DNA from: Stomorhina lunata
Taxonomy: Eukaryota > Arthropoda > Insecta > Diptera > Rhiniidae
Direction of reading: 5' to 3'
DNA length: 64,000 bases
Assembly: GCA_933228675.1 (NCBI GenBank)
Contig: OW121744.1
Coordinates: 61,173,928 to 61,237,927, forward strand
Made by a program: the position numbers and the translations under genes. The notes under the pieces were generated by a model that made no database searches, was not told the DNA's origin, and was given only the letters and a program-made list of their open reading frames with translations. Below, piece after piece: positions 2,661 through 50,520 of this stretch (its first letter is position 1; every line of letters begins with the position of its first letter).

Positions 2661-2667
2661 TCATTTT

Positions 2668-3472
2668 TATACCCTTCACCACCATAGGTGGAAAGGGTAT
2701 TATAAGTTTGTGTTGATGTATGTAACGCATAGAAATATTTGTCTTAGACCCACCTTTTAGTATACCAATAGGCTTAGAATCACTTTCTGAGTCGATTTAG
2801 CAATATCAGTCCGTCCGTCCATCTGGCTGGATGACTGGCTGGACCCCCCATATAAACCATGTAATCAAAGTACAGGTCTCAATTCCAAAGATAATTTGAT
2901 GAGATTTGACACAGATAATTTTTTTGATAGTGTAACCATGGCTATTGAAATTGGTCAAAATGTATTTATTATTTATGGTACCTCCCATAGGTGCCACTTC
3001 CCGGAATTGATATATTTTCCACAAATATCAACATTTTTTCATGAAATTTAAACCAGGTACTGCTTATGTAAACTTAAATAACTGTACAACTTGTTAAAAT
3101 CGGTCCACATTTGACCATAGCTCCCATACAAACTCTTCTGTCAAAACGCCCTAAATGAGTCAAAAATCACTAAAACGCTCGTAAATCTGAAGATAATGAG
3201 AATTTTAAGTTTATTTTTGCACACATAATTTTTGTAGCAACTGTAATCAATTTGCTAAATTTCGAGATAATCGATCCACATTTGACCCTAACTCTCATAT
3301 AATTCCAAATGACGGAAACAGCTTAAATATATAAGTTTTGAGAATATTTATGTATGATGGCAAAATTCAGCAAATACTTGTCTTTATGTAGGAAAAAGAA
3401 CACCTTTGACCTTAGTGGTGAAGGGTATCATATGGTCGGGCTTGACCGACTATAGCCCTTTCTTACTTGTTT
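2668..3472 (+). mobile_element. Helentron-like non-autonomous repeat (family H1), copy 1
   Basis: The copy runs from ATACCCTTCACCACCATAGG, a stem-loop with its partner GGTGGAAAGGGT, to GACTATAGCCCTTTCTTACT. Subterminal inverted repeats (ATACCCTTCACCAC at the left, GTGGTGAAGGGTAT at the right) and an internal GTCC/GTCY tract near 2808 are present. These traits resemble dipteran mini-me/DINE-1 type Helentron-associated elements (known family features: subterminal inverted repeats and a GTCY proto-microsatellite). No protein is encoded. About a dozen copies in this window share the layout. Confidence 0.65.
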
Positions 3473-3524
3473 TTATATGAAATTGAAAGCTTTATTTAGT
3501 ATATAGCAAAGGTGGGCACGCATG

Positions 3525-3745: not shown

Positions 3746-3920
3746 ATTACACTCTGATACACTAAACAAAATCGGGAAACAACCTACCGTGACAAATCAT
3801 GCAAAAAAATTTTATAAGGTTCGTCAACCTTACGACCCGTAGCTTAGTCAGTTTGCATCCAATTTTATTATTTTTAAAAGCAAATAAAATACAGAATGCG
3901 CTTAAGCTTGACTAATCATT

Positions 3921-4735
3921 ATACCCTTCACCACCATAGGTGGAAAGGGTATTATAAGTTTGTGCTGATGTTTGTAACGCATAGAAATATTTTTCTTAGA
4001 CCCACCTTTTAGTATACCAATAGGCTTATATTCACTTTCTGAGTCGATTTAGCGATGTCCGTCCGTCCGTCCGTCAGTCTGGCTGGCCGGCTGGCTGGCT
4101 GGACCCCCATGTAAACCTTGTAATCAAACTACAGGTCGCAATTCTAAAGATAATTTGATGAAATTTGGCATAGATAATTTTTTTGACAATGGGACCATGG
4201 CTATTAAAATTGGTCAAAATCGGTTCATTATTTATGGTACCTCCCATAGGTCCCACTTCCCGGAATTGATATATTGGCTACAAATATCAATATTTTTTCA
4301 TGAAATTTAAAACAGATATTGCTTATGTAAACCTAAATCACTGTATCAAATTTCGTTGAAATCGGTCCACAGTTGACCATAGCTCCCATACAAACTCTTC
4401 TTTAAAAACGCACTAAATGAGACAAAAAATCACTAAAACGCTCGTAAATCTAAAGATAATGAAAATTTTGAGTTTATTTTTCGCATACATAATTTTTGTA
4501 ACAACTGTAGTCAACTCGCCAAATTTCGAGATAATCGGTCCACATTTGACTCTAGCTCTCATATAAGTGCAAATGACGGAAACAGGTTGAATATATAAGT
4601 TTTCAGAAAATGTTTGTATGATGGCAAAATTTTGCAAATATTTGTCTTTAGACAGGAAAAATAACACCTTTGACCTTAGTGGTGAAGGGTATCGTATGAT
4701 CGGCTTGACCGACTATAGCGCTTTCTTACTTGTTT
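3921..4735 (+). mobile_element. Helentron-like repeat H1, copy 2
   Basis: This is a full-length copy in the same orientation as 2668-3472. It starts ATACCCTTCACCACCATAGG and ends GACTATAGCGCTTTCTTACT, with a GTCCGTCC tract at about 4057-4075. Divergence from copy 1 is moderate. It is non-coding. Confidence 0.65.
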
Positions 4736-7561: not shown

Positions 7562-8284
7562 GCTATCTCGAAAACGGCTCTAACGATTTTGATAAAATTT
7601 GGACAGTGGGTATCTTTTTTGATGTATAGGTCGAAAAAGAAGGGACTTTTAAACTTTTTCCTCTAAGAGGGTAAAAACGGGTAAAAAAGGGAAAAAATCG
7701 AAAACGCTATGTCTTCTAAAGTAATAGGTATAGAAACAAAATTAAAATTACGTTTTAAACAGCTTTGAAAATAAGCGGACAGGTGTTTGGTACTTTTTTG
7801 AAACTATGTCCGATAGGGGGTAAAAAAGGGTGAAAATAGTTTTTTTGGCACCTTTTTAACCCACTCTTATATTTTAAACTAAAGAATATAGAAAGAAACT
7901 TGGTACTGCAATCAATAGATGTAAAAAAAACATGAAACACGTATTTGGTACTTTTTTGATTTTGGAGCCAAAATGGGTAAAAAAGGGATAAAATGATAAC
8001 TTAACATCTCCAAAGTAATATGAATAGGAACATTATACATTATGTTAAATGCGTTTTAAAAAAATTTACCGAATTCAATTGGCACCAGAAAAGTACCAAA
8101 TATACATATGGAACTTTTAGAAATTAGGGAATAAAAAGGGGGAAAAATTAGTATTATTTTAAACAAATGAATGTTTGTCTGTATGTATGTTCTTTATAGA
8201 ATAGTAAACTGTGAATTTGATTGTGTTATGCTCTTTAGCGAAGATGTTGCGGATAAGCCGGCGAAGGTTTTAAAGTTGATAAGA

Positions 8285-8860
8285 CTAATTTCCGACAGAT
8301 GGCGCCACTGAAAATTACTAAAAATTAATTAAATCGTAAACTGTACATTTGATCATGCTATGATTTTTAGCAAAGTTGTAGCGCATGAGCCGACGAAGGC
8401 TTTTTAGTTGGTATGAATAATTTCCGACAGGTGGCGCTACAGCAACTTACTCAAAGTCAATTTAATCGTAATCTGTACATTTAATCATGCTACAATCTTT
8501 AGCAAAGTTGTTGCACATGAGCCGACGAAGGTTTCTTAGTTGGTATGAAGAAATTTCGACAGGTGGCGCTACTGAAATTTACTCAAAGTCAATTTAATCG
8601 TATGCTGTACATTTAATCATGCTATAATCTTCAGCAAAGTTGTTACGGATAAGCCGAAGAAGTTATATGAATTGGAATAAGCAAAGTCCGACAGGTGGCG
8701 CCACAGAAAACTACTCAAAATGAATTAAATCGTAAACTGTGCATTTGATCAGATTATAATCTTTAGCAAAGTTGTTGCGCATGAGTCGACAGAGGTTTCT
8801 GTTGATATGAATAATTTCCAAAATTATTCAAAATGAGTTAAACTGTAAACTATGCAAACT
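8285..8860 (+). repeat. ~130-bp tandem repeats inside Helitron-like element
   Basis: Four to five diverged units, each with TTTCCGACAGRTGGCGC, an AATCGTAAACTGTACATTTG-like phrase, TTTAGCAAAGTTGTTGCGCA and CCGACGAAGG. The same array occurs in the two other copies, and fragments of it lie at 2227-2660. Confidence 0.75.
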
Positions 8861-9457: not shown

Positions 9458-11771
9458 TTGAAAACTTTTCTTTAGAAAAACTTATTTTTTCTATAGAAAA
9501 ACTTATTTTCTATAGAAAAACTTATTTTTTCTATAGAAAAACTTATTTTTTCTATAGAAAAACTTATTTTTTCTATAGAAAAACTTATTTTTTCTATAGA
9601 AAAACTTATTTTTTCTATAGAAAAACTTATTTTTTCTATAGAAAAACTTATTTTTTCTATAGAAAAACTTATTTTTTCTATAGAAAAACTTATTTTTCTA
9701 TAGAAAAACTTATTTTTTCTATAGAAAAACTTATTTTTTCTATAGAAAAACTTATTTTTTCTATAGAAAAACTTATTTTTTCTATAGAAAAACTTATTTT
9801 TTCTATAGAAAAACTTATTTTTTCTATAGAAAAACTTACTTTTTCTATAGAAAAACTTATTTTTTCTATAGAAAAACTTATTTTTTCTATAGAAAAACTT
9901 ATTTTTTCTATAGAAAAACTTATTTTTTCTATAGAAAAACTTATTTTTTCTATAGAAAAACTTATTTTTTCTATAGAAAAACTTATTTTTTCTATAGAAA
10001 AACTTATTTTTTCTATAGAAAAACTTATTTTTTCTATAGAAAAACTTATTTTTTCTATAGAAAAACTTATTTTTTCTATAGAAAAACTTATTTTTTCTAT
10101 AGAAAAACTTATTTTTTCTATAGAAAAACTTATTTTTTCTATAGAAAAACTTATTTTTTCTATAGAAAAACTTATTTTTTCTATAGAAAAACTTATTTTT
10201 TCTATAGAAAAACTTATTTTTTCTATAGAAAAACTTATTTTTTCTATAGAAAAACTTATTTTTTCTATAGAAAAACTTATTTTTTCTATAGAAAAACTTA
10301 TTTTTTCTATAGAAAAACTTATTTTTTCTATAGAAAAACTTATTTTTTCTATAGAAAAACTTATTTTTTCTATAGAAAAACTTATTTTTTCTATAGAAAA
10401 ACTTATTTTTTCTATAGAAAAACTTATTTTTTCTATAGAAAAACTTATTTTTTCTATAGAAAAACTTATTTTTTCTATAGAAAAACTTATTTTTTCTATA
10501 GAAAAACTTATTTTTTCTATAGAAAAACTTATTTTTTCTATAGAAAAACTTATTTTTTCTATAGAAAAACTTATTTTTTCTATAGAAAAACTTATTTTTT
10601 CTATAGAAAAACTTATTTTTTCTATAGAAAAACTTATTTTTTTCTATAGAAAAACTTATTTTTTCTATAGAAAAACTTATTTTTTCTATAGAAAAACTTA
10701 TTTTTTATATAGAAAAACTTATTTTTTCTATAGAAAAACTTATTTTTTCTATAGAAAAACTTATTTTTTCTATAGAAAAACTTATTTTTTCTATAGAAAA
10801 ACTTATTTTTTCTATAGAAAAAATTATTTTTTCTATAGAAAAACTTATTTTTTCTATAGAAAAACTTATTTTTTCTATAGAAAAACTTATTTTTTTTATA
10901 GAAAAACTTATTTTTTCTATAGAAAAACTTATTTTTTCTATAGAAAAACTTATTTTTTCTATAGAAAAACTTATTTTTTCTATAGAAAAACTTATTTTTT
11001 CTATAGAAAAACTTATTTTTTCTATAGAAAAACTTATTTTTTCTATAGAAAAACTTATTTTTTCTATAGAAAAACTTATTTTTTCTATAGAAAAACTTAT
11101 TTTTTCTATAGAAAAACTTATTTTTTCTATAGAAAAACTTATTTTTTCTATAGAAAAACTTATTTTTTCTATAGAAAAACTTATTTTTTCTATAGAAAAA
11201 CTTATTTTTTCTATAGAAAAACTTATTTTTTCTATAGAAAAACTTAGTTTTTCTATAGAAAAACTTATTTTTTCTATAGAAAAACTTATTTTTTCTATAG
11301 AAAAACTTATTTTTTTCTATAGAAAAACTTATTTTTTCTATAGAAAAACTTATTTTTTCTATAGAAAAACTTATTTTTTCTATAGAAAAACTTATTTTTT
11401 CTATAGAAAAACTTATTTTTTCTATAGAAAAACTTATTTTTTCTATAGAAAAACTTATTTTTTCTATAGAAAAACTTATTTTTTCTATAGAAAAACTTAT
11501 TTTTTCTATAGAAAAACTTATTTTTTCTATAGAAAACCTTATTTTTTCTATAGAAAAACTTATTTTTTCTATAGAAAAACTTATTTTTTCTATAGAAAAA
11601 CTTATTTTTTCTATAGAAAAACTTATTTTTTCTATAGAAAAACTTATTTTTTCTATAGAAAAACTTATTTTTTCTATAGAAAAACTTATTTTTTCTATAG
11701 AAAAACTTATTTTTTCTATAGAAAAACTTATTTCTTCTATAGAAAAACTTATTTTTTCTATAGAAAAACTT
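9458..11771. repeat. 21-bp satellite array S1 (CTATAG palindrome)
   Basis: About 110 tandem copies of a 21-bp unit: T6, CTATAG, A5, CTTA. Each unit contains the perfect 16-bp palindrome TTTTTCTATAGAAAAA. Homogeneity is very high. I see only scattered variants (short unit near 9500, CTTACT at 9836, TATATAG near 10709, AAATTATT near 10823, CTTAGT near 11246, AACCTT near 11536) and a few one-base indels. Because 21 is a multiple of 3, open frames of 608 codons (+) and 175 codons (-) arise mechanically, made of heptads such as FSIEKLI. They are not genes. Confidence 0.95.
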
Positions 11772-11960
11772 TTGCCAAGTACTTGCTTCGTGGTGGTCGG
11801 GCCTGCTTTCGACCAACAAATGGTCGTGTACCACTCAGAACGGGTAGTTGTAAGCTATAATTTGCTTCGCTGAGCTTCTTCCGCGAACAGCTTTTGTTGG
11901 ATTTACCTCATCCTGGAATACAAATACGGTCGATTCCTTTTTTGTTTCCAGATCATAAGC
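11772..11960 (-). pseudogene. Mariner transposase fragment
   Basis: On the minus strand, frames encode STVFVFQDEVNPTKAVRG and then RSSAKQIIAYNYPF. This matches the mariner segment around the first catalytic aspartate region (family consensus of the type VWVFQDE, NPTKVVR, STSKQM). A stop follows, and then VVHDHLLVESRPDHHEAS. Only ~60 codons remain. The fragment is cut by the S1 satellite on its left and by a hAT-like end at 11963 on its right. Confidence 0.7.
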
Positions 11961-11962
11961 AT

Positions 11963-12260
11963 TAGGGTGGTTAGTTTTTCACTTTTGTCTCTGATAGTGA
12001 AATTATATGACTAAATTATGTCAATCGGGAGTGTGCAACGCGACCTAAATTTGTAAGCCCATTTGTATCGACAAAAATAAAAGTATTTGCAGTTTTTGCT
12101 ACATTTCGTCCATTCAGGATTTATTTTTAAAAGAAAAGATAATGGAATCTAAAAGTAAACTAATGCAGATTTCCTTGAAGCTATAAAATTTTAAAATCCA
12201 TAAAACAGTTTTGGAGTTATTACGATTTCTCCCCCCAAAATTTGAGTCCTTGACGACACT
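11963..12260 (+). mobile_element. Terminal fragment of TAGGGTGG hAT-like element
   Basis: Starts TAGGGTGGTTAGTTTTTCAC and matches the minus strand of 6250-6544 (CACTTTTGTCTCTGATAG, TTTGCAGTTTTTGCTACA). The opposite end was not located downstream, so the element is truncated or too diverged to bound. Confidence 0.5.
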
Positions 12261-14076
12261 GCACTTTTTAGAAATTTGGCTCAAAGTTTATAAGTTTTTA
12301 AAATAATTTCTAATTATAAGAAATTTTGAAAATAATTTCTTATAATTTTTTTTAACAAAATATGAATTTGGTTCAGGACCGCAGGCGGGTTTACTTATAC
12401 AATTTTTTTATTATAAGTTTTTTTTTCTACAATTTCGTTATCAACTTTAAATATCCTCAAAAAGTGCAATATCACTTAACAAAATTGAAAAACGCCTAAA
12501 TAAATTATTAATAAATGATGAACAGTTTTTCGATTATAAATTTATGTAATTGAAACACGTAATTTCCTTCATTTGAATATGGACGGGTTCGTTTTTGATA
12601 GACGGTCTCGATTCCATTTAATTAATTAAATTCCTTTAGACCACCAGTTATGTTTAAGATAATCTGTTGAGGGATATATTGTATCAATGGTGAAATGTTG
12701 CTGGCCGGCCGCTTGTTTTAATGGCATTTAAACATGTCAAGTGATCATTAATTTCGCAACAAATCTTTGGCAACATACAAGAGTAACCCAGCAGTTTAAG
12801 ACAATGATTCCGAAATGATGTTTTGTTGAAGCCAATTGTGTCACAGGTGCTTCCAAAACCAGGAAATTTTTTCTTTATAAACATATGTTACATTTGTCTT
12901 CTTTTTGCATATTAAGTAATGCATAAAGTAGACGTTTGTCTTCATTATGAGTACTAGGTCAAAAAGGTGGTATCGGAATGACACCTTCACTCGGGGACCC
13001 CTTGGGTCCATTGAAATTATGAGTACTATATTTTATAAAAAAAATTGCTTATTCCATTTATACACTCCTAAGCTGTACCTAAAAAGCAAAAAATGAAACT
13101 ATCGAATATCTTAAACACTTTATTATCTGGGCACAGTTGCCACCATTTGAACTGCAGTACAATGTATCTATACATTTGTAAACTAGCTTCTTATGTGTGG
13201 ATACAATTTTTAGATTTTACATATGATTAGGATGAGATGCAGGCATTAAATACAACTTGTGTCACTTTTTTTATAACATTTACGCAAAAAATCCTTTCAA
13301 GTTTCTTTATGGAAGTTATGAGAAATGATGATGACACTAGATGTAGAAGTTAAAATAAAGCGCATGACCAGAATTAAAAATGTTGCTGAATTTGATAAAA
13401 ATCTTATTCGCAACAGGTTTGGGAGGAGGGAAAGATTTTTGGTACTTTTTACAAGTGACCAGGCTCAAGTAAATTAATATCTAGCTTAGGTTAGTGCAAT
13501 AGTCTGGTAATCGGACTTACTTACATTGTGTTACAAAGAATGCCAGTAGAAAGCATATCCCTGAATTCCTGAATTTTCGTAAACCAGGTACCCAGGTGTC
13601 CAAAGAAATAGTAGCCTGAAATTAGTCTTTTTCTGATATCTAACTATATATCTTTCTGATATCTAATATGAAGACTTTTGAAGCAACTAATAGTTAACAA
13701 GAATTTAGTTAAACCATTTATTTTCAAATCAATCCAATCCCTTTTATTGTGTTACTTTAGAGCTCACTGTATACGTAAAGTACCTTTAAAATGAGTACTA
13801 TTTAGAATCTTCCAACAACAAATCCCTTTTTTTATAAATATTTAGCTTTAACTGAAGAGTATTTACTGTTTTTCTTCACAAAAGTCAACAAGGACCAAGC
13901 AACCTTCAAAACATACGTTTAACGCTATGTCACTAATATTAAATATTTATACAGTCAATCAAAAATGTTTAGGATTGGATAGATTATTTTCTTTGTTTGG
14001 CTAAAAAATAATTTAAGAATTTATTAAAAATACTTTTTAAGCAAATATTATAATTTTTTAATTTTGATCAAATAAA
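12261..14076. other. 1.8 kb without a recognised gene
   Basis: AT-rich unique-looking sequence with short spurious open frames. Slightly higher-GC patches near 12690-12860 and 13430-13600 have no protein I recognise. It lies between satellite blocks S1 and S2. Confidence 0.4.
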
Positions 14077-14929
14077 ATTTTCATTATAAAATTTTTTCTA
14101 TAGAAAAATTTTCGATATAAAAATTTTTCTATAGAAAAATTTTCGATATAAAAATTTTTCTATAGAAAAATTTTCGATATAAAAATTTTTCTATAGAAAA
14201 ATTTTCGATATAAAAATTTTTCTATAGAAAAATTTTCGATATAAAAATTTTTCTATAGAAAAATTTTCGATATAAAAATTTTTCTATAGAAAAATTTTCG
14301 ATATAAAAATTTTTCTATAGAAAATTTTCGATATAAAAATTTTTCTATAGAAAAATTTTCGATATAAAAATTTTTCTATAGAAAAATTTTCGATATAAAA
14401 ATTTTTCTATAGAAAAATTTTCGATATAAAAATTTTTCTATAGAAAAATTTTCGATATAAAAATTTTTCTATAGAAAAATTTTCGATATAAAAATTTTTC
14501 TATAGAAAAATTTTCGATATAAAAATTTTTCTATAGAAAAATTTTCGATATAAAAATTTTTCTATAGAAAAATTTTCGATATAAAAATTTTTCTATAGAA
14601 AAATTTTCGATATAAAAATTTTTCTATAGAAAAATTTTCGATATAAAAATTTTTCTATGGAAAAATTTTCGATATAAAAATTTTTCTATAGAAAAATTTT
14701 CGATATAAAAATTTTTCTATAGAAAAATTTTCGATATAAAAATTTTTCTATACAAAAATTTTCGATATAAAAATTTTTCTATAGAAAAATTTTCGATATA
14801 AAAATTTTTCTATAGAAAAATTTTCGATATAAAAATTTTTCTATAGAAAAATTTTCGATATAAAAATTTTTCTATAGAAAAATTTTCGATATAAAAATTT
14901 TTCTATACAAAAATTTTCGATATAAAAAT
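14077..14929. repeat. 31-bp satellite array S2
   Basis: About 27 units of T5, CTATAG, A5, T4, CGATAT, A5. CTATAG centres are 31 bp apart (for example 14407 and 14438). The core is the same 16-bp palindrome as in S1. Variants include single A deletions (near 14323) and CTATGG/CTATAC changes. It ends abruptly at the spacer fragment at 14930. Confidence 0.95.
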
Positions 14930-14999
14930 TTACCCTAATTCAAGACAGAGCGAAAGCCTCACATTATGTATAATTTGAGGGACTGAATAAATACGAATT
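14930..14999 (-). mobile_element. Partial spacer/pLTR copy X0
   Basis: A 70-bp inverted fragment of the segment found whole at 15090-15316. It covers GAATTAGGG to the AAATACGAATT end and stops before the ribozyme core. It abuts S2. X0 and X1 flank an 89-bp insert (15000-15089) in inverted orientation. Confidence 0.75.
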
Positions 15000-15089
15000 A
15001 TTATTATTGTGTCCAACAAATATCAACATAAAGCGCAGATTATCATCCGAACAGAAACACACAAACATTTTTCAGTTTTATCATTTCTA
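15000..15089. other. Insert Y between inverted spacer copies
   Basis: A 90-bp unique segment, including AAAGCGCAGATTATCATCCG. It is repeated as its reverse complement at 18476-18564. Together with the flanking X copies it gives an 83-codon open frame on each arm. That frame runs through a ribozyme motif and resembles no protein I know, so I do not call it a gene. Confidence 0.5.
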
Positions 15090-15316
15090 ATTCGTATTTA
15101 TTCAGTCCCTCAAATTATACATAATGTGAGGTTTTCGCTCTGTCTAGAATTAGGGATAATCCTCCTGATGAGATGGTCTAACCAACCATCGAAACGCGTC
15201 GAGGAAAGGTTTCCCCACCAACATTTTTTGGTTTTATCAAAAAACTATTTATTACAATAATAAATAATTGTAATAAATTGGGATTCTTAGTGCAATACAC
15301 TACCGTAAAACTTTTT
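15090..15316 (+). mobile_element. Spacer X1: probable Penelope-like element terminal segment with ribozyme
   Basis: A ~227-bp segment from ATTCGTATTTATTCAGTCCC to TACCGTAAAACTTTTT. It occurs three times in full here (X1, X2, X3) and once in part (X0), always at satellite edges. It contains a hammerhead ribozyme. Ribozyme-bearing terminal repeats placed in inverted orientation around short inserts are known for Penelope-like retroelements, so I infer that origin. No GIY-YIG or reverse-transcriptase coding was found nearby. A ribozyme-bearing satellite or retrozyme remains an alternative. Confidence 0.6.
15153..15216 (+). ncRNA. Hammerhead ribozyme 1 (type I, short stem III)
   Basis: Stem I TCCTC (15160-15164) pairs with GAGGA (15201-15205). 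The core CTGATGA is at 15165-15171. Stem II GATGG/CCATC (15172-15176 with 15186-15190) has a 9-nt loop. GAAA is at 15191-15194. A minimal stem III CGCG leads to UC, so cleavage is expected after C15200 (GUC triplet). GGG (15153-15155) can pair with CCC beyond an internal loop, extending stem I. All conserved core bases (C3 to A9, G12 to A15.1, G16.2, U16.1, H17) are present. Tiny stem III forms are typical of Penelope-like and satellite hammerheads and often act as dimers. Confidence 0.88.
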
Positions 15317-16859
15317 AAAAATTTTATAATGAAATTTTTTCTATAGAAAAAATTTTATAATGAAATTTTTTCTATAGAAAAAATTTTATAATGAAATTTT
15401 TTCTATAGAAAAAATTTTATAATGAAATATTTTCTATAGAAAAAATTTTATAATGAAATTTTTTCTATAGAAAAAATTTTATAATGAAATTGTTTCTATA
15501 GAAAAAATTTTATAATGAAATTTTTTCTATAGAAAAAATTGTATAATGAAATTTTTTCTATAGAAACAATTTTATAATGAAATTTTTTCTATAGAAACAA
15601 TTTTACAATGAAATTTTTTCTATAGAAAGAATTTTACAATGAAATTTTTTCTATAGAAAAAATTTTATAATGAAATTTTTTCTATAGAAAAAGTTTTATA
15701 ACGAAATTTTTTCTATAGAAAAAATTTTATAATGAAATTTTTTCTATAGAAAAAATTTTATAATGAAATTTTTTCTATAGAAAAAATTTTATAATGAAAT
15801 TTTTTCTATAGAAAAAATTTTATAATGAAATTTTTTCTATAGAAAAAATTTTGTAATGAAAATTTTTCTATAGAAAAAATTTTATAATGAAATTTTTTCT
15901 ATAGAAAAAATTTTGTAATGAAAATTTTTCTATAGAAAAAATTTTATAATGAAATTTTTTCTATAGAAAAAATTTAATAATGAAAATTTTTTTTATAGAA
16001 GACATTTTATTATTAAAATTTTTCTATAATAAATTTTATAATGAAAATTTTTTTATAGAAAAAATTTTATATCGAAAATTGTTCTATAGAAAAAATTTTA
16101 TATCGAAAATTTTTCTATAGAAAAAATTTTATATCGAAAATTTTTCTATAGAAAAATTTTTATAATGAAAATTTTTCTATAGAAAAATGTTTATAAAAAA
16201 AATTTCTATAGAAAAATTTTTATATCAAAAATTTTTCTATAGAAAAATTTTTATATCGAAAATTTTTCTATAGAAAAATTTTTATATCGAAAATTTTTGT
16301 ATAGAAAAATTTTTATATCGAAAATTTTTCTATAGAAAAATTTTTATATCGAAAATTTTTCTATAGAAAAATTTTTATATCGAAAATTTTTCTATAGAAA
16401 AATTTTTATATCGAAAATTTTTCTATAGAAAAATTTTTATATCGAAAATTTTTGTATAGAAAAATTTTTATATCGAAAATTTTTCTATAGAAAAATTTTT
16501 ATATCGAAAATTTTTCTATAGAAAAATTTTTATATCGAAAATTTTTCCATAGAAAAATTTTTATATCGAAAATTTTTCTATAGAAAAATTTTTATATCGA
16601 AAATTTTTCTATAGAAAAATTTTTATATCGAAAATTTTTCTATAGAAAAATTTTTATATCGAAAATTTTTCTATAGAAAAATTTTTATATCGAAAATTTT
16701 TCTATAGAAAAATTTTTATATCGAAAATTTTTCTATAGAAAAATTTTTATATCGAAAATTTTTCTATAGAAAAATTTTTATATCGAAAATTTTTCTATAG
16801 AAAAATTTTTATATCGAAAATTTTTCTATAGAAAAATTTTTATATCGAAAATTTTTCTA
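15317..16859. repeat. 31-bp satellite array S3 (left arm)
   Basis: About 50 units of 31 bp. Positions 15317-16030 use the ATAATGAAA linker variant (T6 CTATAG A6 core). 16030-16859 use the ATATCGAAA variant, the reverse complement of the S2 unit. A short irregular zone near 15970-16060 separates the two variants and is mirrored in S4. Confidence 0.93.
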
Positions 16860-18245
16860 TAGAAAAATTTTCGATATAAAAATTTTTCTATAGAAAAATT
16901 TTCGATATAAAAATTTTTCTATAGAAAAATTTTCGATATAAAAATTTTTCTATAGAAAAATTTTCGATATAAAAATTTTTCTACAGAAAAATTTTCGATA
17001 TAAAAATTTTTCTATAGAAAAATTTTCGATATAAAAATTTTTCTATGGAAAAATTTTCGATATAAAAATTTTTCTATAGAAAAATTTTCGATATAAAAAT
17101 TTTTCTATAGAAAAATTTTCGATATAAAAATTTTTCTATACAAAAATTTTCGATATAAAAATTTTTCTATAGAAAAATTTTCGATATAAAAATTTTTCTA
17201 TAGAAAAATTTTCGATATAAAAATTTTTCTATAGAAAAATTTTCGATATAAAAATTTTTCTATAGAAAAATTTTCGATATAAAAATTTTTCTATACAAAA
17301 ATTTTCGATATAAAAATTTTTCTATAGAAAAATTTTCGATATAAAAATTTTTCTATAGAAAAATTTTTGATATAAAAATTTTTCTATAGAAATTTTTTTT
17401 ATAAACATTTTTCTATAGAAAAATTTTCATTATAAAAATTTTTCTATAGAAAAATTTTCGATATAAAATTTTTTCTATAGAAAAATTTTCGATATAAAAT
17501 TTTTTCTATAGAACAATTTTCGATATAAAATTTTTTCTATAAAAAAATTTTCATTATAAAATTTATTATAGAAAAATTTTAATAATAAAATGTCTTCTAT
17601 AAAAAAAATTTTCATTATTAAATTTTTTCTATAGAAAAAATTTCATTATAAAATTTTTTCTATAGAAAAATTTTCATTACAAAATTTTTTCTATAGAAAA
17701 AATTTCATTATAAAATTTTTTCTATAGAAAAATTTTCATTACAAAATTTTTTCTATAGAAAAAATTTCATTATAAAATTTTTTCTATAGAAAAAATTTCA
17801 TTATAAAATTTTTTCTATAGAAAAAATTTCATTATAAAATTTTTTCTATAGAAAAAATTTCATTATAAAATTTTTTCTATAGAAAAAATTTCGTTATAAA
17901 ACTTTTTCTATAGAAAAAATTTCATTATAAAATTTTTTCTATAGAAAAAATTTCATTGTAAAATTCTTTCTATAGAAAAAATTTCATTGTAAAATTGTTT
18001 CTATAGAAAAAATTTCATTATAAAATTGTTTCTATAGAAAAAATTTCATTATACAATTTTTTCTATAGAAAAAATTTCATTATAAAATTTTTTCTATAGA
18101 AAAAATTTCATTATAAAATTTTTTCTATAGAAAATATTTCATTATAAAATTTTTTCTATAGAAAAAATTTCATTATAAAATTTTTTCTATAGAAAAAATT
18201 TCATTATAAAATTTTTTCTATAGAAAAAATTTCATTATAAAATTT
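16860..18245. repeat. 31-bp satellite array S4 (right arm)
   Basis: About 45 units, the reverse complement of S3 in the same variant order. CGATATAAA units run to about 17500, then the irregular zone, then TTTCATTATAAA units. A few point changes are shared with S3 at mirrored positions, for example the GAAGAC/GTCTTC patch near 16000 and 17592. Confidence 0.93.
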
Positions 18246-18475
18246 TTAAAAAGTTTTACGGTAGTGTATTGCACTAAGAATCCCAATTTATTACAATTAT
18301 TTATTATTGTAATAAATAGTTTTTTGATAAAACCAAAAAATGTTGGTGGGGAAACCTTTCCTCGACGCGTTTCGATGGTTGGTTAGACCATCTCATCAGG
18401 AGGATTATCCCTAATTCTAGACAGAGCGAAAACCTCACATTATGTATAATTTGAGGGACTGAATAAATACGAATT
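18246..18475 (-). mobile_element. Spacer X2 (inverted copy of X1)
   Basis: The reverse complement of X1 and essentially identical, so it belongs to the palindrome's right arm. It carries the ribozyme on the minus strand. Next to it, 18476-18564 is the inverted copy of insert Y. Confidence 0.85.
18348..18411 (-). ncRNA. Hammerhead ribozyme 2 (minus strand)
   Basis: Same core and stems as ribozyme 1, read on the minus strand. Stem I is 18404-18400 with 18363-18359, CTGATGA is 18399-18393, stem II GATGG/CCATC, GAAA, CGCG and UC. Expected cleavage lies between 18364 and 18363. The motif is complete. Confidence 0.88.
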
Positions 18476-18564
18476 AGAAATGATAAAACTGAAAAATGTT
18501 TGTGTGTTTCTGTTCGGATGATAATCTGCGCTTTATGTTGATATTTGTTGGACACAATAATAAT

Positions 18565-18792
18565 AATTCGTATTTATTCAGTCCCTCAAATTATACATAA
18601 TGTGAGGCTTTCGCTCTGTCTTGAATTAGGGTAATCCTCCTGATGAGATGGTCTAACCAACCATCGAAACGCGTCGAGGAAAGGTTTCCCCACCAACATT
18701 TTTTGGTTTTATCAAAAAACTATTTATTACAATAATAAATAATTGTAATAAATTGGGATTCTTAGTGCAATACACTACAGTAAAACTTTTTA
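18565..18792 (+). mobile_element. Spacer X3
   Basis: Third copy of the X segment, same orientation as X1, with minor changes (GTCTTGAATTAGGGTAATCC against GTCTAGAATTAGGGATAATC). Only its first ~68 bp belong to the palindrome. The rest continues uniquely to the right and is followed by 37 bp and then array S5. Confidence 0.8.
18629..18691 (+). ncRNA. Hammerhead ribozyme 3
   Basis: TCCTC (18635-18639), CTGATGA (18640-18646), GATGG/CCATC (18647-18651 and 18661-18665) with loop TCTAACCAA, GAAA (18666-18669), CGCG, UC, then GAGGA (18676-18680). Expected cleavage is after C18675. Stem I can extend by GGG/CCC. The core is identical to ribozymes 1 and 2, while the flank differs slightly (GGGTAA against GGGATAA). 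Confidence 0.88.
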
Positions 18793-18829
18793 ATTAAATG
18801 TTTGATGTCCCAAATTTTGATAAACCTTT

Positions 18830-20153
18830 TTAAAATTTTTTCTATAGAAAAAATTTCATTATAAAATTTTTTCTATAGAAAAAATTTCATTATAAAATTT
18901 TTTCTATAGAAAAAATTTCATTATAAAATTTTTTCTATAGAAAAAATTTCATTATAAAATTTTTTCTATAGAAAAAATTTCATTATAAAATTTTTTCTAT
19001 AGAAAAAATTTCATTATAAAATTTTTTCTATAGAAAAAATTTCATTATAAAATTTTTTCTATAGAAAAAAATTCATTGTCAAATTTTTTCTACAGAAAAA
19101 ATTTCATTATAAAATTTTTTCTATAGAAAAAATTTCATTATCAAATTTTTTCTACAGAAAAAATTTCATTATAAAATTTTTTCTATAGAAAAAATTTCAT
19201 TATAAAATTTTTTCTATAGAAAAAATTTCATTATAAAATTTTTTCTATAGAAAAAATTTCATTATAAAATTTTTTCTATAGAAAAAATTTCATTATAAAA
19301 TTTTTTCTATAGAAAAAATTTCATTATAAAATTTTTTCTATAGAAAAAATTTCATTATAAAATTTTTTCTATAGAAAAAATTTCATTATAAAATTTTTTC
19401 TATAGAAAAATTTTCATTATAAAATTTTTTATATAGAAAAATTTTCATTATAAAATTTTTTCTATAGAGAAATTTTTATTATAAAATTTTTTGTATAGAA
19501 AAATTTTCATTATAAAATTTTTTATATAGAAAAATTTTCATTATAAAATTTTTGCTATAGAAAAATTTTCATTATAAAATTTTTTCTATAGAGGAATTTT
19601 CATTATACAATTTTTTCTATAGAAAAAATTTCATTATAAAATTTTTCTATAGAAAAAATTTCATTATTAATTTTTTTCTATAGAAAAAATATCATTATAA
19701 AATGTTTTTTATAGAAAAATTTTCATTATAAAATATTTTTTATAGAAAATTTTTCTATAGAAAAATTTTGATTATAAAAATTTTTCTATAGAAAAATTTT
19801 GATTATAAAATTTTTTCTATAGAAAAATTTTCATTATAAAATTTTTTCTATAGAGAAATTTTTATTATAAAATTTTTTGTATAGAAAAATTTTCTTTATA
19901 AAATTTTTTGTATAGAAAAATTTTCATTATAAAATTTTTTCTATAGAAAAATTTTCATTATAAAATTTTTTCTATAGAAAAATTTTCATTATAAAATTTT
20001 TTCTATAGAAAAATTTTCATTATAAAATTTTTTCTATAGAGAAATTTTTATTATAAAATTTTTTGTATAGAAAAATTTTCATTATAAAATTTTTTCTATA
20101 GAAAAATTTTCATTATAAAATTTTTTCAATAGAAAAATTTTCATCATAAAATT
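18830..20153. repeat. 31-bp satellite array S5
   Basis: About 42 units, mostly T6 CTATAG A6 TTTCATTAT AAAA. The proximal part (to about 19400) is homogeneous. The distal part is more diverged (GATTATAAA, TATATAG, GTATAG variants near 19410-20150), as expected at an array edge. It ends at AAATTATTTGGC. Confidence 0.93.
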
Positions 20154-20230
20154 ATTTGGCAGGCTGTGTAGCTTGTGACGCCGTTTTCCTGAAACCAAAG
20201 GTTACCACAATTTAGGGTGTTTGATAAGAA

Positions 20231-20850
20231 AACAAGTAAGAAAGGTCAATCCCGACTATACGATACCCTTCACCACTAAAGTCATCCAAACATTTTTAAA
20301 GACTTATATATTTCAGCTTTTTCAGTCATTTAGACTTATACCGTCAAATGTGGATCGATTATCTCGAAATTTGGGAAATTGATTACAGTTGTTACAAGAA
20401 CTATGAATGAAAAAATGAAGCCCAGAATTATTATTACCTTCATATTTACGAACGTTTTAATGATTTTCGCCTCGGCGTTTTGACAGAATATTTTGTATGA
20501 GAGCTATGGTTAAATGTGGACCGATTTTAACGAAATTTGACACAGTAATTTTGGTTTACATGAAAAAAATATTGTGGCTAAAATATCAATTCCGGTAGGT
20601 GGCCCCTATGGGAGGTACCAGAAAATTTCATCAAATTATCTATAGAATTGCTACTTGTACTTTGATTACAAGGTTTACATGGGGGTCCAGCTAGACCGAA
20701 GGACGGACATAGTTAAATCGACTCAAGAAGTGATTCTAAGTCTATTGGTATGCTTAAAGGTGGGTCTAAGAATAATATTTCTATGCATTACATATATCAG
20801 TACAAACTTATAATACCTTTTCCACCTATGGTGGTGAAGGGTATAATAAA
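20231..20850 (-). mobile_element. Helentron-like repeat H1, copy 3
   Basis: Opposite orientation to copies 1 and 2. It starts AACAAGTAAGAAAGGTCAAT and ends with the CCACCTATGGTGGTGAAGGG stem-loop region. It is slightly shortened internally. Non-coding. Confidence 0.65.
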
Positions 20851-22123
20851 ATACAAATTCTCAAAAAACATTAATTTTTTTTCATTTCCTTTGCAAACAT
20901 TGTCTCTTCAGAATTTAAGATACAAATTTCAAAATGAATATAAACATTTAAATGTTGATAAACCAAAATCTTGAACAAGGACATCGAAAGTTGCCATGAG
21001 GATAAATGGATGACCGCAATAAAAATACCGCAAGATGAGAAAGAAAGACGGCAAAAAGTACAAGGTGAAATTTGTCAGCTGAAAGTGAATTTATTATTTA
21101 AAATCAACAACATTTGAAGGCATAAAAATTGCCATTTATATTTTACTTTATATTGTTATTAACCGCTTTCTGCACCATGGGCCGCACGGCCAGAGTAAAC
21201 ACGCTTAAGGTTAAATGTATAAAGAAGAGGATAATAAAATAATTAACAGCCGCAAGTAGAAAAAAAAGAACAAAATGTTTATTAAAATGCCAATTTTACA
21301 AAATTTTCAAAATGAGGTCATGAGTTTTTGAGCTGGTAAAACGAGTAAATCCAAACGAATGCAGTTTTTTTTTTGCAAAAAATAATCAATTTATGGCCAA
21401 TTATTTTTCAATGAATTAACAATTTTTTTTTTTTTTTTGAAACGCCCAAAAAGTTCAATGAATTTCTTAAAATAATCAGCTAAACTGAGAGATTTGTATG
21501 TTTAGGCGAAAATTTAAAATTTTCAAATATGCATAAGTTTCATATTTCATTGTCATGAACATGACAACTGCAGCGTTTGGACAGACATAAAAATGTTTAA
21601 ATACTTTTTTAATTGACATTTGAATCGACAAGTGTATGGACAGACGGATAACAACAACAGACAGTTTGGCTGGTAATTCAACAACAACAAAAAAAGGAAA
21701 ACTGACAAAAAAAATATATGATCACCAAAACACGTAAATTTTATTGTCGGAAGGGAAACTGAAACCTACTCCCAACAGCGTTCTTTCTGTCTGCCTGCCC
21801 TTCAGTTCCTTCGTCTCAAACAGCCGGACATGTGTAATCCAGGCAATAAACAAAACGATTTGATGATTTTTTTAAATTTAACACTGAATTAAAAATATTA
21901 AATTTCCACTAAATTTGTGATATGTGGCGAAATAATGACATTGTAATTTAAAACATTTTAATTTGTTCTTTCTTTTTTATTTTTATCGTAATGAAGTAAA
22001 AAATTCTATTAATGAAATTTTTTTTTCTAAAATTTTTAAAGTGAAACGATCTTTGAAGCTTCAAGGTCTGTGTTGAAATGTTTATACTTTCGTTGCAGCA
22101 AAAAAAAAAAAAAGAATTCAAAA
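20851..22123. other. 1.3 kb of apparently unique non-coding DNA
   Basis: AT-rich with poly(T), CAA-rich and CTGTCTGCC-like stretches typical of fly intergenic or intronic DNA. No credible reading frame or repeat partner. Confidence 0.4.
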
Positions 22124-22125
22124 TA

Positions 22126-22831
22126 CAGGCAACTCCCGGTAAAACGAAATATATAATGTCAGGCTCATTCGTAATACAGAAATATTCGTTATATCGCAAA
22201 GCTTTTATACTCTACTTCACCATAGATATATTGGTCTGAGACCACCGACTAATCTACTCATAATCAATAACTGACTCGATTTAACGATGTCAATTCGTTC
22301 GACTGCTGTTCAGGCTTGTCATCAATGTAATCTCCTTATAAAAGTCCCATTTTCTAGGATAATTTCATAAAAGTTAGTACAGACATCTTTTTCATAGTGA
22401 GACTAACAATACTAAAATCGGTTCTTTATTTCAGAAACCTTTCATAGGTCTGGCTTCCCGAAATTTAGATTTTGCCCTCAAATTTTATTATATGTATTTA
22501 TACAAAATTAAGAGGAAATATTTATTTAAGATTTAAAAATCACTGTACGAAATTTTCGTTGGAATCGGTCAAAATCTTACGAAAACGACAATTTGATTCT
22601 TTTTTTGCACAGTTTACATATTTTTTACTTTCTTTTTAGTCGGTTTTCAAATACACATTAATTAAATGTTTAAATTCATGGACATTTTTCATAACTTTTT
22701 TTTATTATTCGTTATATCGCGTATTAAATTTCCTTAATATTCGCTATATAAGGTATTCAATGGAAAAAATAATAGCGTTCGTTATATCCAATTTCCGTTA
22801 AACCGGGATTCGTTATAACCGGCTTTGCCTG
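22126..22831. mobile_element. pogo/Tigger-like MITE with TA duplication
   Basis: Starts CAGGCAACTCCCGGTAAAAC and ends CCGGCTTTGCCTG, with TA on both sides (22124-22125, 22832-22833). Both subterminal regions are rich in TTCGTTATAT/ATAACGAA, characteristic of pogo-family termini. No transposase. The centre (about 22205-22610) contains a degenerate H1-like segment (TACTCTACTTCACCATAG, TTCCCGAAATTTAG), probably a nested insertion. Confidence 0.6.
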
Positions 22832-22973
22832 TATTTCAAATAAATTTTGAATTTTCATTTCTACACGAATGCACTTTTGCTGTAAGTTAAAGTTTTTGTT
22901 TGTAGTAATAAACATTTCTTTTTGGCATTTGGCCAAAATTGTTTTAAATGAAAATATCACAATAAAATTATTA

Positions 22974-23129
22974 GCTGTGTTCCAGAACTACCAATACTGT
23001 ACAATATTGTACAAGTTTTAATCAGAAACTACAGGAAAGTGTTCCTGTACTAAAAAAAGATGACTTAATTGTAATTTCTGGTTAAAAATTGTACAATATT
23101 GTACAGTTTTGGTAGTTCTGGAACACAGC
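22974..23129. mobile_element. 156-bp palindromic MITE
   Basis: The termini GCTGTGTTCCAGAACTACC are inverted at the two ends (GGTAGTTCTGGAACACAGC). Each arm also carries the perfect palindrome TGTACAATATTGTACA (22997-23012 and 23090-23105). TA flanks are at 22972-22973 and 23130-23131. Non-coding; the TA target suggests Tc1/mariner mobilisation. Confidence 0.75.
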
Positions 23130-23490
23130 TATTACTTGAAATTTTATTTCAATTTTAAGAATTTTTTTTTTCAAATTTTTCAAAAACCAAAAGCGATATG
23201 GGCAAATCCGAAAAAAAATTAACCAAGGACAAAATTTTAAAACTTTCAAAATCACGTATTTGTGTATATGAAAAATTTTACCTTATATGGAACCTTTAGA
23301 ATATATAATGGATATAATTCTTGATTGGTCTCTTCGCTAATGGCAGGTCTTTATTTGCACCCATTTCAAATTTTTATACATTTTTTAACATAAAAGGTTT
23401 TTTAGAAGTTCATAAAAATCAAAAAAACATCCATTTAAGTATAAAGTTTCGGTATGGGCTCAAAGTCTGTTTAATTTTATACAATTAGAC

Positions 23491-24990
23491 GTAAAAGACC
23501 CCAACAAAAGTAATTGGAGTGATATAAATAACGCCAAGTAAAAAAGAGCTTACAGTGTGTAGCGTCCGTCACAGAAATAAAGGTTTTTTTAATTTCACTA
23601 GTGAAAATTTTCTTGTTTCTCCAATTGAACTTGGTTCGTAAAGAGAACTTATAGTATACTTTACATTAGGCTAAAAATATATAAATGTTAATACAGCATT
23701 TTACAGAATAATATATATAGGAAAGTGTGTAACGTCCGTCACAGTATATAATTTTTACAAAAATATATTTATTAAATACAATATTTACCAACACATATTT
23801 GTCTTATTCATAAAGCAATAACATTGTCTATATCCACAGATTAAATTTAAGGTATTAGGTGTTAAAAAAAATATACAGTGGGGCAAATTTAATGCTTTTG
23901 AAGTTTGTTTTATTTTTTTTTTCTTATTTTTGGGACACTCTAACAGCTAGCCGCAGCATTCTTTCGACGAAAAATAAAACGTAAAAAGTGAAAAACTTTA
24001 AATAAATATATGTATGTATGTAGCCGTTTTGTGAAATATTAAATTGTGCCCAAAAATCGCATTGTAACCGCGAACATGAAAAGGAAGAAGATGAAATTCG
24101 GGAACAAATAAAACCATTATTTTCACTGATTAACGAACCCTTAAAAAAAATATGAACTTTTTTCTAATAAAAAACATTCAAGTAACTGTATCGTCCCCAC
24201 GTAGCGTCCGCAACAGTTCATTTATGGATTTTTGGTGAAACTGGAAACTTTAAAATATTTTGTAAAAGCTGTTTTGTAATCCTCTGAAAAGGAAGGAGAT
24301 GAAATTCGGGAACAAATAAAACCATTATTTTCACTGATTAACAAACCCTTCAAAAAAATATAAAATATGCATTTTTTTCTAATAAAAAACATTCCAGTAA
24401 AAACTGTATCGTCCGTCACGTAGCGTCCGCAACAGTTTATTTATGGATTTTTGGTGAAACTGGAAACTTTAAAATATTTTATAAAAGCTGTTTTGTAATC
24501 CTCTGATTTTCCTCTATCTTTAACGTATTTACAATTTTTTTATTCTATGCCCGATTTGATGAAAATTACAGAAACATGTGTTGACAAAAAATGTCACTTC
24601 TATTTTTTGTAGCGTCCGTCACAACACATTAAAAGCGAATATCTTTTTCCTCCAAAAGAAGTATGTAAATTAACAAATGCCATTCGATAGCACATTCGAT
24701 GGGCTAATATTCTCAGAAATCTGTGCAAAGATATCTAGAGTAGAACCGCAATGGGATATATTTAAGTACAACAAAATCTGTAGAAATGTATTGTCCGTCA
24801 CGCAGGATTTGCCCATATATATATTATGAATCCTTATGAAATTCTAAGACTATTGAATTTCATAAGGATTCGATGGGCTAATATTCTCAGAAATCTGTGC
24901 AAAGATATCTAGAGTAGAACCGCAATGGGATATATTTAAGTACAACAAAATCCGTACAAATGTATTGTCCGTCACGAAGGATTTGCCCAT
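23491..24990 (+). repeat. Repeat D with dispersed GTCCGTCAC motifs, copy 1
   Basis: Homologous to 52306-52969 plus 58976-59290. A motif of the form GTAGCGTCCGTCACAG, or CGTCCGCAACAG, recurs at irregular spacing (about 23556, 23728, 24198, 24407, 24418, 24608, 24787, 24961). Two internal tandem duplications are visible, of ~207 bp (24086-24500) and ~171 bp (24698-25020). The element ends near GCAGGATTTGCCCATAT. No protein is encoded and the class is unknown. An A/B-type element inserted in the other copy gives an empty-site comparison at about 24178. Confidence 0.6.
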
Positions 24991-25189
24991 ATATATTCTG
25001 AATCCTTATGAAATTCTAAGACTATTGAGCAATGTCCGTCTGTTGAAATCACGATAACGCCTCAACGAAAGGAGCTAGCTCACAGAAACTTAGTTAAAAC
25101 ATTCTTTATTTCATAGGAAATTTTGGTATTGAAATTGGGCAAAATCGGTTAACTTGACCATAGCTTCCGTATAACCTCGCCTAGGCTAA

Positions 25190-26066
25190 TCGCTTATATA
25201 TTTAATCTATTTCCGTCATTTGGACTTATATGAGAGCTAGGGGTCAAATGTGGAAAATTGATTACAGTTGTTACAAAAAAAAAGTATGCAAAAAATAAAC
25301 TTAAAACTCTCATTATCTTCGGATTTACGAGCGTTTTAGTCAATTTTGTCTCATTTAGTGCGTTTTGAGAAAAGAAAAAATATTGATTTTTGTGGCCAAT
25401 ATATCAATTCCTATCAAGACCTATGGAAGGTACCATAAATAATGGACCGATTTTGACGAGTTTCAATAGCCATGGTCCCATTATCAAAAAAAAAATAATC
25501 TGTGCCAAATTTCATCAAAATATCTTTAGAATTGCGACCTGTAGTTTGATTACAAGGTTTACATGGGGGTCCAGCCAGCCAGACGGACGGGCGGACGGAC
25601 ATCGCTAAATCGACACAGAAAGTGATTCTAAGCCTAATGGGTCTAAGATAAATATTTATATGCGTTACATACATCATTTCCACCTATGGTGGTGAAGGGT
25701 ATAAATATTGATATTTGTGGCCAATATATCAATTCCGGGAAGTGGGACCTATGGGAAGTACCATTAAAAATGGACCGATTTTGACGAATTTCAATAGCCA
25801 TGGTCTCAGATTAAAAAAAAAATTATCTGTGCCAAATTTAATCAAATTATCTCTAGAATTGCGATATGTACTTTGATTACATGGTTTATATGGGGGCCAG
25901 CCAGCCGTTTAGCCAGACGGATGGGCAGACAGACAGACGGAATAACTGACTGACATCACTAAATCGACTCAGAAAGTAATTCTAAGCCTATTGGTATACT
26001 AAAAGGTGGGTCATACATAAGCACAAACTTATAATACCCTTTGCGCCTATGGTGGTGAAGGGTATC
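25190..26066 (-). mobile_element. Helentron-like repeat H1, two partial copies in tandem
   Basis: A truncated copy (25190-25702) ends in the CACCTATGGTGGTGAAGGG terminus and is followed at once by a second partial copy (25703-26066). The second starts inside the element (TATTGATATTTGTGGCC) and ends in GCCTATGGTGGTGAAGGG. Each has a GACGGACGGGCGGACGG-like tract. Head-to-tail partial copies are common among rolling-circle-type elements. Confidence 0.6.
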
Positions 26067-26095
26067 TTATTATATTCTTAAACGAGCAATAATTG

Positions 26096-26100
<5 letters not shown>

Positions 26101-26127
<27 letters not shown>
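26101..26127. repeat. (AT)n microsatellite in Helitron-like copy 2
   Basis: A 27-bp alternating AT run, preceded by GTATGT, which breaks the longer TA tract seen in copy 1. Confidence 0.95.
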
Positions 26128-26132
<5 letters not shown>

Positions 26133-26836
26133 GCTATCTCGAAAACGGCTCTAACGATTTTGATAAAATTTGGACAGTGGGTACCTTTTTTGATGTATAG
26201 GTCGAAGAAGAAGGAACTTTTGGAACCTTTACCTCTAAGAGAGTAAAAACGGGTAAAAAGGGGAAAAATCGAAAATGTCATATCTCCTTAAGTAATAGGT
26301 ATAGAAATAAAATAAAAATTACGTTTTTAACAGCTATGAAAATAAGCGGACAGGTGTTTGGTACTTTTTTGAAACTATGTCCTGTAGGGGGTAAAAGAGG
26401 GTGAAAATAGTTCTTTTGGTACTTTTTTAACCGACTCTTATATTTTAAACCAAAGAATATAGAAAGAAACTTTGTACTGCAGTCAATAGATGTAGAAGAA
26501 ATATTGAACACGTACTTGGTACTTTTTTGATTTTGGGGCCAAAATTTGTAAAAAGGGATAAAATGATATCTTAACATCTCAAAAGTAATATGAATAGGAA
26601 TTATGTTAACTGCGTTTAATTAAAATGTACCGAATTCAATTGGTACCAAAGAAGTAACAAATAAGCATATGGAACTTTTTGAAAGTAGTGGATAAAAAGG
26701 GGAAATGTTATAACTTTTAAACAAATGAATGTTTGTATGTATGTTCTTTATAGAATAGTAAACTGTGAATTTGATCATATTGAGCTCTTTAGCGAAGATG
26801 TTACGGATAAGCCGGGGAAGGTTTTTAAGTTGGTAA

Positions 26837-27458: not shown

Positions 27459-28189
27459 TAAGACTAATTTCCGTTAAGTGGCGCCACTGAAAATTACTAA
27501 AAATTAATTAAATCGTAAACTGTATATTTGATCATGCTATGATCTTTAGCAAAGTTGTAGCGCATTAGCCGGCAAAGGTTTTTTAATTGGTGTGATAATT
27601 TCCGACAGATGGCGCTACTCAAAGTCAATTTAATCGTAAGCTGTACATTTAATCATGCTATAATCTTTAGCAAAATTGTTGCGGATAAGCCGACGAAGGT
27701 TTATTAATGGGAATGACCAAAGTCCAACGGGTGGCGCCACTGAAAATTACTCAAAACGAATTAAATCGTAAACTTTGCATTTGATCATGTTATAATCATT
27801 AGAAAAGTTGTTACGCATAAGCAGACGAAGGATTCTTTGTTGGTATGAACAACTTCAGGTGGCGCCACTGAAAATTACTCAAAATGAAATAAATCGTAAA
27901 CTGTGCATTTGATCAGGCTATAATATTTAGCAAAGTTGTTGCGCATGAGTCGACGGAGGTTTCTGTTGGTATGACCAATTTCTAAAATTTTTCAAAATTA
28001 GTTAATCTGTAAACTATGCAAACTATGTGTTGATCGGAAAAAATGAATAAAATAATTCGAAATTAACTGAAAATTTGCACAAAATGCTTATCATAAAGTT
28101 CCGAGCAAGGCTCGGTCAACCAGGTACTAAACACTTAAATGCCAGTAAATCTAAAACTATAACAGATATAACCACTTAATTAAGCACAA

Positions 28190-50506: not shown

Positions 50507-50520
50507 TAACAACAAAAACA

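Follow-up and report, generated by a model that had tools for sequence, protein, structure and literature searches.

In the literature that we examined, which was seen in part, animal hammerhead ribozymes travel mostly with reverse-transcribed elements, and the available text of two reports (PMC6431247, PMC12477314) names Terminons and Penelope-like elements as their only context. According to the accessible sections of PMC7229834, the axolotl hammerhead has a stem III of a single pair, capped by a palindromic tetraloop, and works better as a dimer. For Aedes aegypti, the portion of PMC3088659 at hand describes hammerheads with a palindromic stem III, the example tested there showing no cleavage. 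W-elements, as far as the available text of PMC8490949 describes them, contain inverted repeats and target duplications inside the elements, around miRNA and snoRNA parts, and inverted repeats beside hammerheads are thus not wholly new. A hammerhead in the arm of a foldback element or MITE was not found in the open-licence literature, covered largely at the level of titles and abstracts. Here, we describe a hammerhead from Stomorhina lunata that occurs in three copies within a stretch of 64,000 nucleotides (the window). With a probability of roughly two in three, we favour the reading that it is a metazoan-type, dimer-prone type I hammerhead riding as a passenger in a foldback-like inverted-repeat insertion, with one copy having arisen by later duplication.

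Hammerhead motifs and their anatomy

The three motifs lie at 15153-15216 on the plus strand (copy A), 18348-18411 on the minus strand (copy B) and 18629-18691 on the plus strand (copy C), with predicted cuts at 15200/15201, 18364/18363 and 18675/18676, respectively. A first-pass annotation of this DNA had proposed hammerheads at these sites and strands, cleaving at 15201 and 18676 (+) and at 18363 (-). Searching the window with the exact pattern CTGATGA-N5-25-GAAA-N2-12-TCGAGG returned exactly these three sites, confirming that observation, and the proposed cleavage positions agreed with the predicted cuts when the coordinates were rechecked. Copy A comprises on the plus strand stem I (15160-15164/15201-15205), CTGATGA (15165-15171), stem II (15172-15177/15185-15190), GAAA (15191-15194) and CGCG (15195-15198). 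The 52 bases from 15158 to 15209 are the same in all three copies, each of which combines a full core with stems I and II of 5 bp and 5-6 bp, respectively. Judged by the criteria in the accessible text of Perreault et al. 2011 (PMC3088659), the conserved core is complete (C3 U4 G5 A6 N7 G8 A9 and G12 A13 A14), as are the adjoining features of a type I hammerhead, namely the A15.1-U16.1 pair, C at H17, and paired N1.1-N2.1 and N10.1-N11.1. The earlier statements that every conserved core base is present in all three copies and that stem I has 5 bp thus held. Stem II, previously given as 5 bp, does pair and can reach 6 bp (GATGGT/ACCATC) around a 7-nt loop. Stem III is indeed very short, but the minimal CGCG helix proposed before cannot form within one molecule: two further CGCG pairs are impossible since no loop would remain, leaving a single A-U pair with a CGCG cap (four bases between GAA-A and U-C). 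Because ACGCGU is self-complementary, a stem III of 6 bp is possible between two molecules.

How much of this resemblance is unusual depended on the stems. The exact pattern was absent from all 100 shuffled sequences. A looser pattern of the core without stems gave six overlapping matches at the same three sites, and at least six matches were seen in 13 of 100 shuffles; the core-only pattern is not rare, and the stems therefore carry the weight. A descriptor demanding at least 5 bp in stems I and II found these three sites only and nothing in 300 first-order Markov windows, and a relaxed version (at least 4 and 3 bp) again found only these sites, with a mean of 0.017 matches per random window. 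When stretches of 121 bases were scanned, the Rfam type I model RF00163 (Hammerhead_1) matched each of A, B and C in the right register with 22 bits (E 0.0019), below its gathering score of 34 bits. The alignment reaches past the universal core, taking in UCC before the core, CGAAACG, CGUC and GGA. We read this match as kinship with known type I hammerheads, the stem III loop probably being too short for the model. A covariance-model hit above threshold, the lack of which the first-pass annotation had itself named as refuting its reading, was not obtained: Rfam at gathering thresholds gave no match in the whole window, and at E values up to 5 no hammerhead was among the 132 matches between 12500 and 21000. 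Scanning 241 bases returned only Hammerhead_3 (type III), with 15.6 bits and out of register. Within the arrays, matches to microRNA models were set aside as simple AT palindromes scoring below Rfam gathering. Exact-pattern searches of viral and prokaryote sequence collections gave no match, a result that says little about insects.

An inverted-repeat insertion and a probable later duplication

A single inverted-repeat insertion of 583 bp (18248-18830, GC 0.317) holds copy B in one arm and copy C in the other. The left arm (18248-18476) consists of a tail, hammerhead B on the minus strand and an arm segment of ~68 bp; a diverged loop of ~87 bp follows (18477-18563), and the right arm (18564-18791) mirrors this order with an arm segment, hammerhead C on the plus strand and a tail. 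The halves align nearly end to end, save for the loop and for a surplus of ~39 bases on the right (18792-18830) that has no inverted partner at the left end. The insertion breaks a 31-bp CTATAG array whose orientation is equal on either side, and once its flanks are joined, the array regains its 31-bp period with an identity of 0.995. The insertion is bordered by a 10-bp direct repeat, TAAAATTTTT, on the plus strand at 18238-18247 and 18831-18840. Because array phase alone would yield a repeat of 7-11 bp with a chance of 0.16, we take this repeat as support, not proof, of insertion. Because of the unpaired right-end bases, the arms do not both abut a copy of the repeat; a deletion on the left side is one explanation for this excess, and an asymmetric retro-insertion another. 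A second insertion of this kind was not found within the window. The loop contains a 24-bp direct copy (87.5% identity) of the sequence following the ribozyme, equalled in 4 of 500 shuffles. The loop was also examined for the remains of another, decayed hammerhead, a candidate that was rejected because 103 of 500 shuffles scored equally well. No protein gene was found in or near the insertion, and the interval 11,874-26,277 is not touched by any stop-to-stop ORF reaching 110 aa. The window has 12 ORFs of this size outside the arrays, and a scan of 10 of them yielded one reverse transcriptase domain (at 50.5 kb) and no GIY-YIG domain. For two transposase fragments, the named hits among the 120 of 145 and the 120 of 652 matches listed are to insects, flies in the first case and moths, a beetle, a psyllid and bees in the second.

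Copy A has a different history. It sits in a spacer (14930-15316) that repeats, as reverse complement, a portion of 18244-18634, the latter covering the left arm with B, the loop and the inner right arm; the exact reverse complement extends from 14930 to 15320, 391 bp without a difference. This identity belongs to a near-perfect inverted duplication of ~3.7 kb (14930-18634) in which the array orientation flips at ~16857; the CTATAG units at this point are self-complementary, a setting that suits snap-back copying. The arms of this palindrome, ~1.85 kb each, are told apart by one substitution and one 31-bp unit, plus a misaligned centre: 72 of 1,883 alignment columns differ, of which 31 are the repeat unit, one is the substitution and 40 are central columns that differ because the chosen split point misses the flip. 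At its left breakpoint, the palindrome runs straight on into the array. Since A is B duplicated, all three copies go back to a single insertion; three independent hammerhead copies were therefore rejected. The two plus-strand copies, A and C, are 3,475 bp apart. The same anatomy displaced the original description of the ribozymes as lying in the spacers of a satellite array. The 31-bp CTATAG arrays extend around and between the spacers (14074-20157), and the 31-bp unit itself is without a ribozyme, as is another CTATAG array with a 21-bp unit (9466-11771). The proposed link between hammerhead and CTATAG satellite was consequently not supported, and the array looks like the landing place of the element. 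According to the part of PMC13061963 available to us, CTATAG repeats can be made in the test tube by DNA polymerases working without a template.

The remaining claim of the first-pass annotation, that the core had been kept despite independent changes in the flanks, found no footing either. Copy A is not independent, and the arms of B and C show four differences (three substitutions and one indel) in ~230 columns, 10 columns at ragged alignment ends being omitted from this count. None falls in the core, and the chance of none of four hitting the 50-nt core without selection is 0.38; selection on the core was accordingly dropped as a candidate. The indel lies within the 64-base motif, on the 5' side of the proposed internal loop. 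We consider a selected role of the hammerhead in the insect quite improbable. Of the earlier interpretation, the hammerhead identity is supported; the satellite spacer setting, the kept core and the CTATAG link are not. A broader lesson is that hammerhead counts in repetitive DNA can be inflated through inverted duplication.

Predicted folding in different transcripts

Predicted folds depended strongly on the sequence included. The stability of the isolated 64-mer is not unusual (z -1.77; 10 of 200 shuffles were as good), and its minimum-energy fold is not a hammerhead (-19.2 vs -13.9 kcal/mol for the hammerhead). Stem I had a probability of 0.05-0.06 in the 64-mer and 0.01 in the 63-mer of copy C, and of 0.79-0.90 in a 49-mer. 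In the context of copy A, the mean probabilities of stems I and II were 0.76 and 0.91, and in a C-side fragment without copy B they were 0.69 and 0.89. When the RNA spans the whole insertion, or stops a short way beyond C, both values fall to 0.0 because the arms are predicted to pair with each other, burying both ribozymes. The minus strand of the two-arm unit is predicted to fold alike, again with its ribozymes buried. The extension of stem I by GGG/CCC that had been proposed earlier fared poorly: its probability was 0.0 in five longer contexts because GGG pairs upstream (0.94-1.0), being captured in the A context by an upstream arm hairpin. The isolated 64-mer is predicted to form the GGG/CCC pairing, but as part of a non-hammerhead structure.

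Even in the A context, GAUG of the core forms a rival pairing with CGUC with a probability of 0.5-0.6, and for this reason the set of hammerhead-compatible structures lies 2.1 kcal/mol above the full ensemble, corresponding to a probability of ~0.03. This value was 0.04 in the 49-mer, 0.003 in the 64-mer and practically 0 in the two-arm unit. For the dimer, the hammerhead scored -36.3 as compared to -44.2 for the best dimer fold. The energy model covers secondary structure only, ignoring core contacts and Mg2+, so the preference for rival folds should be taken as a caution only. Going by these predictions, the hammerhead is probably weak or silent where it is placed, the element being probably silent when whole and single arms at best weakly active. 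Our judgement leans slightly towards cleavage being seen in a dimer test.

Origin of the element and relation to known systems

We propose that a type I hammerhead with a minimal, self-complementary stem III (ACGCGU), probably inherited as a passenger from a retrozyme or Penelope-like source, rides in a small non-autonomous element with inverted repeats, one copy to each arm. This foldback-like element would have landed in a CTATAG array of the insect genome. Copy A would have arisen subsequently through an inverted duplication in which copying probably snapped back on a self-complementary CTATAG unit. Since no protein gene was found in the element or close to it, cutting would probably need read-through transcription. 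In RNA of the whole element, the arms would pair and bury both ribozymes. A single-arm transcript, such as one from A, could expose its ribozyme, which would be weak alone and better as an ACGCGU-joined pair.

Other readings of the locus deserve weighing. Hammerhead repeats of a Penelope-like or retrozyme fragment might have been inserted head to head by reverse transcription, the ribozyme serving to process multimeric RNA; we regard this as plausible without expecting it to be the case. Most classical type I hammerheads of animals are described from retrozymes, and the minimal ones from Penelope-like elements, according to the available text of PMC7229834 and PMC7761336, and the retrozyme traits given in the former, a GC content below 50% and flanking repeats of more than 4 bp when present, agree with the GC of 0.317 and the 10-bp repeat. 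Furthermore, the 24-bp direct copy in the loop could be a trace of an older tandem arrangement, and the asymmetric right end suits retro-insertion. Against this stands the lack of the direct tandem repeats of ~150-450 bp, each with a hammerhead, that mark metazoan retrozymes, the distant plus-strand copies being explained by duplication of B. The loop is likewise without a decayed second hammerhead. Moreover, a gene combining reverse transcriptase and GIY-YIG with pseudo-LTRs, as in Penelope-like elements, was not found near the locus, in keeping with the ORF-free interval and the single distant reverse transcriptase domain; a non-autonomous Penelope-like derivative is possible. The foldback-like reading, in turn, would suit the long inverted arms and the 10-bp flanking repeat, a length within the 8-10 bp of foldback target duplications, but less so the extra right-end bases, since foldback repeats abut such duplications directly.

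It is somewhat unlikely that the 3.7-kb palindrome is an assembly artefact from a foldback read, in which case only the B/C insertion would be real and A absent from the chromosome. Near-perfect arms centred on a self-complementary repeat and the identity of A and B over 391 bp would fit such an origin, but a recent real inverted duplication would look the same, and both the differences between the arms and the left breakpoint passing straight into the array speak for a genuine event. An active cis-regulatory system, with the inverted partner as a built-in off switch and only broken one-arm elements freeing the ribozyme, would match the predicted burial in the whole insertion and the predicted exposure of both stems, I and II, when arm A stands alone. 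We hold it to be very improbable, given that the exposure may be a by-product of the inverted duplication and that comparing the B and C arms gives no evidence of selection. To chance resemblance without any catalytic history we give almost no credence: a score below Rfam gathering, the preferred rival fold and the common core-only pattern speak for it, whereas core and stems together were absent from all 300 random windows and the type I match exceeds the core bases. Extending the favoured foldback-like reading, one could imagine a family of foldback DNA transposons with a hammerhead in each terminal inverted repeat, in which arm pairing silences the intact element, whereas single arms, left by breakage or duplication, set dimer-dependent ribozymes free in read-through RNA of the satellite; this extension is unlikely.

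Comparable in structure are the HHR_Amex1 hammerheads of newt and axolotl retrozymes which, in the descriptions available to us, share the one-pair stem III, the palindromic tetraloop, low GC and a preference for dimers. Their repeats, of a few hundred bp, are counted as tandem retrozymes, whereas the hammerheads studied here lie in inverted arms of one insertion, and they feature loop-loop contacts, whereas the present motif is known from sequence and predicted secondary structure. In Penelope-like elements and Terminons, as described in the available sources, minimal type I hammerheads are alike in their very short stem III, proposed dimer action and location in mobile DNA, but lie in pseudo-LTRs or at the ends of elements with a reverse transcriptase, a gene not found at this locus. 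The repeat-associated hammerheads of Aedes aegypti (Perreault et al. 2011) likewise come from an insect and have a palindromic stem III and an interspersed-repeat setting; they were compared by description, not sequence, and the accessible text does not mention inverted-arm placement. Hammerheads in repetitive DNA are also described, in the partial texts available, for Schistosoma SM-alpha, the W-elements, whose ribozymes share an extremely short stem III (PMC8490949), and the Dolichopoda pDo500 satellite; those are SINE-like or satellite monomers, whereas here the satellite unit is without a ribozyme. In overall build, the insertion resembles the Tetris foldback of Drosophila virilis which, in the main text of its paper as available to us, lacks coding capacity, combines long inverted repeats with target duplications of 8-10 bp and is tied to tandem arrays, and in which the word "ribozyme" does not occur. 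Tetris carries its tandem repeats inside the arms, whereas at this locus the inverted repeats contain none and the arrays lie outside 18248-18830. The inverted placement is the unusual part of this hammerhead, and foldback-like carriage, if true, would provide hammerheads with a second vehicle and with a simple off switch in the form of their own mirror copy.

A short repeat at the hammerhead flank

The 24-bp segment directly after the type I hammerhead motif at 15153-15216 (+), spanning 15216-15239, recurs with 87.5% identity in the loop, the diverged segment between the arms of the 583-bp inverted-repeat insertion, at its counterpart in the spacer around this hammerhead (15060-15083). An equally good match arose in 4 of 500 shuffles.

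Other tandem and dispersed repeats

A second CTATAG array (9466-11771; 21-bp unit, ~110 copies) is traversed by long reading frames and contains no hammerheads. A 128-132-bp tandem repeat occupies three sites (8200-8819, 27478-27982 and 57191-57627), whose likeness extends into the flanking sequence; together they probably represent one mobile element bearing repeats. Several copies of a dispersed ~0.8-kb family lie on both strands of the window, at 2663-3484, 3919-4735, 40264-41006 and 60129-60967, among others.

Remnants of transposable elements

Reverse transcriptase and RNase H pieces at 50503-50904 and 51453-51890 probably derive from a LINE. Two transposase remnants, at 54662-55360 (-) and 62295-63038 (+), were judged by reading to be Tc1/mariner-like, the latter showing 93% identity to one protein cluster.
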